DNA from: Alphaproteobacteria bacterium
GTDB taxonomy: Bacteria; Pseudomonadota; Alphaproteobacteria; JAVJVX01
Length of the DNA stretch: 64,000 bases
Assembly (NCBI GenBank): GCA_040220875.1
Contig: JAVJVX010000005.1
Span: 310,001-374,000 of the forward strand
Direction: 5' to 3'
Part shown: positions 44,782-44,857 of the stretch, piece by piece
Layout of the letters: every line of letters begins with the position of its first letter
Position numbering within the stretch: position 1 is the stretch's first letter
The notes under the pieces: model-generated
The model's database searches: none
Told to the model about the DNA's origin: nothing
The model's input: the letters and a program-made list of their open reading frames with translations, nothing else
Program-made: the position numbers and the translations under genes

Positions 44782-44857
44782 GACTCAATGATTCCATATA
44801 GGGTATTGGTCTAATCCCTTGATTCAAAAGAGATTGACGGCGTGACTCGGGAGACTC
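44782..44857 (+). promoter_or_regulatory. Cluster of five GANTC sites in the ccrM leader
   Basis: Five copies of the sequence methylated by CcrM (GANTC) lie in 76 bases just upstream of the ccrM start: GACTC 44782, GATTC 44790, GATTC 44821, GACTC 44844 and GACTC 44853. At random one copy per 256 bases is expected. In Caulobacter methylation of leader GANTC sites represses ccrM, so an autoregulatory, methylation-sensitive promoter read by CcrM/GcrA is the likely reading (inference). Confidence 0.7.

Follow-up and report, generated by a model that had tools for sequence, protein, structure and literature searches.

The feedback model for CcrM, the GANTC adenine methyltransferase, derives from Caulobacter, in which CtrA drives ccrM and, according to PMC2217572, the gene is transcribed from the hemimethylated chromosome only. 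A GANTC between the -35 and -10 elements makes Caulobacter ftsZ depend on CcrM, and at the ftsZ and mipZ promoters, with their conserved CGACTC, experiment has shown this site to be needed for both activity and CcrM dependence (Gonzalez and Collier 2013, PMC3708114). Caulobacter transcription starts with a GANTC between -35 and -10 are activated at 40-60 min (PMC4287350). A further case comes from the secondary-replicon replication genes of A. tumefaciens, repABC and repE, where a GANTC overlapping the predicted -10 matters for activity and methylation has been shown to affect replicon maintenance (PMC11514494). Counts of GANTC across the class have been published upstream of ctrA, not ccrM (PMC8116508). 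Brilli 2010 (PMC2877005) describes CtrA sites at ccrM as very frequent in Rhizobia and leaves its GANTC counts without a conclusion.

The locus compared here lies in a window of 64,000 nt (the whole stretch of DNA analysed) from an alphaproteobacterial genome of 2.54 Mb in 9 contigs, with an estimated completeness of 99.2%. The ccrM gene (44870..46018, + strand) encodes 382 aa and was identified by domain and family profile matches. Its N6_N4_Mtase and C-terminal RAMA domains each score above the gathering score, and its full-length best match is to NCBIfam NF050803 (622.6 bits, E = 1.5e-187), at a score under the equivalog cut-off of 830 bits. The upstream neighbour is rnhB (ribonuclease HII, 44102..44749), on the same + strand. 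A sequence scan places five GANTC sites, at 44782, 44790, 44821, 44844 and 44853, all inside 44782-44857 and thus in the 120-nt gap between the rnhB stop and the ccrM start. Directly after ccrM lies a convergent mutY (46057-47202, - strand), followed by a DciA-domain gene (47296-47844, + strand).

An earlier note on this DNA had placed the five sites in the ccrM leader. That wording does not fit, as the sites straddle a sigma70-like promoter, with fixed spacing of the -35, the spacer site and the -10 site, and not an mRNA leader. The putative -35 element, TTGACG (44834..44839, + strand), is conserved in the ccrM promoter alignment described below, and a spacer of 17 nt separates it from a putative -10-like hexamer, CATTCT (44857..44862, + strand; class consensus CANNNT). 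Relative to the first T of the -35, site 1 (GACTC, 44782..44786) and site 2 (GATTC, 44790..44794) lie 52 and 44 nt upstream, and site 3 (GATTC, 44821..44825), which is followed by an A-rich stretch, lies 13 nt upstream. Site 4 (GACTC, 44844..44848) falls in the spacer at +10, its counterparts in relatives being at +6 to +10, and site 5 (GACTC, 44853..44857) begins at +19 and overlaps the first base of the -10. With the elements predicted at these positions, GANTC lies between and overlapping -35 and -10, as is expected of a GcrA/CcrM-regulated sigma70 promoter. The box that marks a Caulobacter-type CtrA-driven ccrM promoter, TTAA-N7-TTAA, is absent upstream of this ccrM. Counted from the first T of the -35, the ATG comes 36 nt downstream, and the ccrM mRNA may therefore be nearly leaderless, starting at or near the ATG. 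A generic promoter and terminator scan of the ccrM upstream region found nothing, because the -10 is poor, and an Rfam search of the leader for an RNA element gave no match. A short inverted repeat, GGGAGA-N5-TCTCCC (44849..44865), may be incidental.

This arrangement resembles the ftsZ and mipZ promoters in carrying GANTC between the -35 and -10 of a cell-cycle promoter. However, those promoters have one core site, serve other genes and operate where GcrA is present (PMC3708114), whereas here there are two core sites, one of them fixed at +19, and the effect of methylation is inferred. It shares with repABC and repE a GANTC overlapping the -10, but differs from them in layout and in the genes served (PMC11514494). 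The Caulobacter ccrM promoter controls the same gene but is CtrA-driven (PMC2217572), and the layout found here is without a CtrA box.

The window is poor in GANTC, with 141 copies observed vs 299 +/- 17 in shuffles, and the nearest copies beyond the cluster are at 44536 and 45268. By simple arithmetic about 0.17 sites would be expected in 76 nt at the window's own rate. Under a harder null, which keeps the leader's own dinucleotide make-up, 14 of 20,000 simulated 120-nt leaders reach five. The cluster that the earlier note reported is therefore real and far above chance. Across the whole genome we found 51 matches to GANTC triples with gaps of 2-30 nt. Read by eye, the list contains two long runs in promoters, the ccrM cluster and a cluster before a DivIC/FtsB gene. 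Other runs are a group of five sites close to the end of a contig (C1:424-483) and one formed by a 12-nt tandem repeat (C6:442271-442311).

The source species is the sole representative of its order in our sample and the comparison was therefore made class-wide. A CcrM match at E ≤ 1e-40 was found in 172 of 240 evenly drawn alphaproteobacterial genomes; the ccrM loci of 150 of these were compared, 22 weaker matches being left out, and 80 named loci were added. Start codons of the compared loci were assigned by rule and the leader was taken as the 120 nt before the start, one leader shorter than this being dropped from the counts (n = 149). These leaders contain 396 GANTC (mean 2.66), with at least three in 81, at least five in 24 and none in 28. 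Seven sister palindromes of the same composition total 29-68 sites each, a mean of 0.19-0.46 per leader. A reversed-pattern control was excluded as a null because it is CTNAG-like, and such patterns are reported to be themselves biased (PMC3973325). GANTC occurs at 22 per kb in ccrM leaders vs 1.85 per kb elsewhere in the same loci, a 12-fold difference, and at least three copies are present in 28 of 8,029 background windows of 120 nt from these loci. Taking one locus per family (87 loci) gives a mean of 2.48, with 17 leaders having none. Upstream of 30 gcrA loci, used as a control with rough positions, the mean is 0.3 per 120 nt. The GANTC cluster is a conserved property of ccrM, and the five sites of this locus are within the usual range. 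Conservation beyond Caulobacterales, which the earlier note had proposed, is thus borne out, and extends more widely than proposed.

When the ccrM leaders are set side by side, a promoter becomes visible. In 84 of 150 loci TTGAC is followed by a GANTC within 6 nt. In an alignment of these 84 on TTGAC, the second GANTC occupies position +19 exactly in 45 loci and +20 in another 6, and 33 carry an upstream GANTC at -15 or -16 (site 3 here is at -13). The alignment also contains CANNNT at +23 to +28 (C 0.74, A 0.81, T 0.82), behind a 17-nt spacer. The full two-site layout is limited to about a third of ccrM loci (52/150) and is present in 32 of the 80 named loci; control positions of the same loci, on both strands, gave 9 matches in 1,993,372. 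Among one-per-family leaders the +19 position is occupied in 27 of 51, vs a mean of 0.18 and a maximum of 3 in 2,000 shuffles. The distance from TTGAC to ATG is 34-39 nt in 13 of 32 family-level layout loci and shorter or longer in the others. Helical phasing of the sites (period 10.5-11 nt) was considered and set aside, being explained by the fixed offsets of -15, +8 to +10 and +19. One layout locus (L199, genome G216) has seven evenly spaced GANTC before the chosen start, a count that stems from a 15-nt tandem repeat, probably in-frame, with one GATTC per unit.

The layout is spread across several orders. Named loci that carry it come from Azospirillum, Niveispirillum and others in Rhodospirillales, from Novosphingobium, Croceibacterium and Sphingomicrobium in Sphingomonadales, from some Rhodobacterales (Actibacterium, Limimaricola) and from Micavibrio, the orders being assigned by genus name. 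None of the Phenylobacterium, Caulobacter, Brevundimonas, Mesorhizobium and Rhizobiaceae ccrM loci examined has it. The earlier note compared this locus with the Caulobacter leader, but Caulobacterales are not the reference type: GANTC sites are few, and the two-site core is missing, at the Phenylobacterium, Caulobacter and Brevundimonas loci. The Mesorhizobium locus has zero GANTC. The CtrA box TTAA-N7-TTAA is found in none of the 52 layout loci, this one included, and in 6 of the 98 loci without the layout.

The pattern TTGAC-N1-6-GANTC-N2-8-GANTC has exactly two matches in the 2.54 Mb of the source genome, one at ccrM and one at C7:182742, outside the window. The latter precedes a gene of 105 residues with a PF04977 (DivIC/FtsB) domain, flanked by eno and pdhA. 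The protein scores 44.2 bits against PF04977, above the gathering cut-off of 28.9, and 21.2 against the NCBIfam FtsB model NF002058, below the cut-off of 101. Seven GANTC are packed into 113 nt before this gene (C7:182656-182768, equal to L275:2057-2169), and the -35 is again 36 nt before the ATG. Class-wide, 150 matches to a similar pattern are listed in 85 genomes, with at least 27 at ccrM, at least 20 at ftsB and the other 103 assigned to neither; the two gene tallies are lower bounds, since places were assigned only for those genomes that were recognised by eye. TTGAC with a GANTC at +20 to +24 was found in 48 of 70 ftsB loci, at +21 or +22 in 46 of these, with the consensus TGTGATTCnnT. 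In 41 of the 48 the ATG is 35-37 nt after TTGAC, a distance which suggests that ftsB transcripts are leaderless across much of the class. The ftsB core site is present in 45/63 CcrM-positive genomes vs 3/23 that are negative for both CcrM and GcrA (Fisher p = 1.4e-6), a comparison confounded by phylogeny and base composition and unevenly drawn, from best matches plus 20 chosen CcrM-minus genomes (1 of 90 without a BLAST match). It is also present in two of three genomes with GcrA and no CcrM match. In the open literature searched, we found neither an account of the two-site ccrM layout nor a mention of ftsB being targeted by CcrM.

On balance we favour reading the cluster as a sigma70-type ccrM promoter open to methylation, which is of a type shared with the DivIC/FtsB gene and probably responds to methylation state and gives CcrM feedback on itself. 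Methylation-linked autoregulation, which we infer to be the most likely function, fits a cluster that greatly exceeds chance and is kept far beyond Caulobacterales; the dependence of Caulobacter ftsZ on CcrM through a GANTC between -35 and -10 and the transcription of Caulobacter ccrM from hemimethylated DNA are precedents. Weighing against this reading are the weak -10, with nothing found by the generic scan, the restriction of the full layout to 52 of 150 loci and the 28 of 149 leaders that have no GANTC. Judged from sequence, the promoter would be active, its sites methylated and its transcription altered by methylation. The proposed arrangement would run from the TTGACG -35 through the spacer GANTC to a second GANTC, fixed at +19 and bordering the -10 on its upstream side; the other GANTC sites, farther upstream, would lie where the alpha subunit of RNA polymerase or an activator would sit. 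Because CcrM would methylate the adenines of this promoter, its output would depend on the methylation state in which the replication fork leaves the DNA as it passes, and CcrM would thereby gain feedback on its own synthesis. The same promoter type before the DivIC/FtsB gene would couple methylation state to division. The mark might be read by GcrA-sigma70 where GcrA exists, and here by RNA polymerase itself or another reader.

A more classical explanation is that GcrA-sigma70 recognises the methylated GANTC and activates both ccrM and ftsB in the way known for Caulobacter cell-cycle genes, GcrA having been missed here by the searches. GcrA is known to bind methylated GANTC and RNA polymerase (PMC3667746), and in our sample it accompanies CcrM in 132 of 172 genomes (CcrM only in 40, GcrA only in 15, neither in 53; n = 240). 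Moreover, the spacer site matches the extended GcrA motif YGAKTCG (PMC7987155) in 17 of the 39 layouts from GcrA-positive genomes. However, the motif is not tellingly rarer without GcrA (4/13, the two groups being unseparated), and it does not match the core sites of this locus, which read TGACTCG and AGACTCA. Neither PF07750 nor a profile made from 14 alphaproteobacterial GcrA sequences, searched at E ≤ 10, found a GcrA in the source genome; of nine GcrA-positive controls, the 14-row profile recovered seven at E ≤ 1e-6 and one at 0.004, and missed one. The earlier note had proposed GcrA ChIP; with none detectable by two profile searches of a genome 99.2% complete, GcrA is unlikely to be the reader here.

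The class-wide data also argue against this explanation, which we consider unlikely overall. The ccrM layout is equally common without GcrA (13/32 vs 39/118 GcrA-positive; the 40 CcrM-only genomes include weak CcrM matches, e.g. G010, G110, G118 and G130, whose leaders are outside these counts). Among GcrA-less genomes at least 95% complete the layout is found in 10 of 23, including a genome in one contig (G066). The ftsB site is found in 18/21 GcrA-less vs 27/42 GcrA-positive genomes. The CcrM tree of 150 loci requires no fewer than 22 changes in GcrA presence and shows no positive association between GcrA and the layout: in 10 supported independent pairs, GcrA and layout differ the same way in 0.5, the opposite way in 3.3 and show no difference in 6.2. 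Retention of these promoters does not depend on a detectable GcrA, which may read them where it is present. The separate expectation that GcrA-less leaders hold fewer GANTC was rejected (mean 3.16 vs 2.52, p = 0.18), and the tree agrees.

Another possibility is that GANTC merely reflects the preferred letters of a sigma-factor promoter, with methylation having no regulatory use. One of the two core sites does overlap the -10, but we regard this as improbable: the pattern occurs just twice in the source genome, though sigma70 promoters must serve the majority of genes; GANTC is avoided elsewhere; some of the sites fall beyond the core; and the ftsB site tracks CcrM presence. Direct autorepression, with excess CcrM bound to its own promoter and blocking RNA polymerase whilst methylation is incidental, would suit an array of the enzyme's own substrate sites and a protein with a C-terminal DNA-binding domain (the RAMA domain here; PMC6787082), but it does not predict that a GANTC should be fixed at +19 or that ftsB should share the promoter, and it is very improbable.

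If ccrM is controlled through a methylatable promoter, as we favour, the data suggest a circuit in much of the class other than the CtrA-driven one of Caulobacter, built on a promoter core that carries the enzyme's own sites and is common to ccrM and a division gene. ftsB would then be a candidate for a conserved target of methylation, through which division could be tied to replication. Because GcrA-less genomes keep the promoter, the reader of CcrM marks becomes testable in vitro. More speculatively, and with considerable doubt, ccrM and ftsB might have in common a promoter of ancient alphaproteobacterial origin, at which RNA polymerase itself, with no need of GcrA, reads N6-methyladenine both in the spacer and on the edge of the -10. 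On this view GcrA would be an amplifier that came later or can be dispensed with, and the ccrM circuits that CtrA drives in Caulobacter and rhizobia would be derived exceptions.

Lastly, CcrM and GcrA go together less strictly than the usual account has it. A GcrA match is lacking in 40/172 CcrM genomes and a CcrM match in 15/147 GcrA genomes, some of these being incomplete genomes or weak CcrM matches. Unexpectedly, the GcrA family model also scored above its cut-off in one of the control genomes, that of Sulfolobus acidocaldarius.
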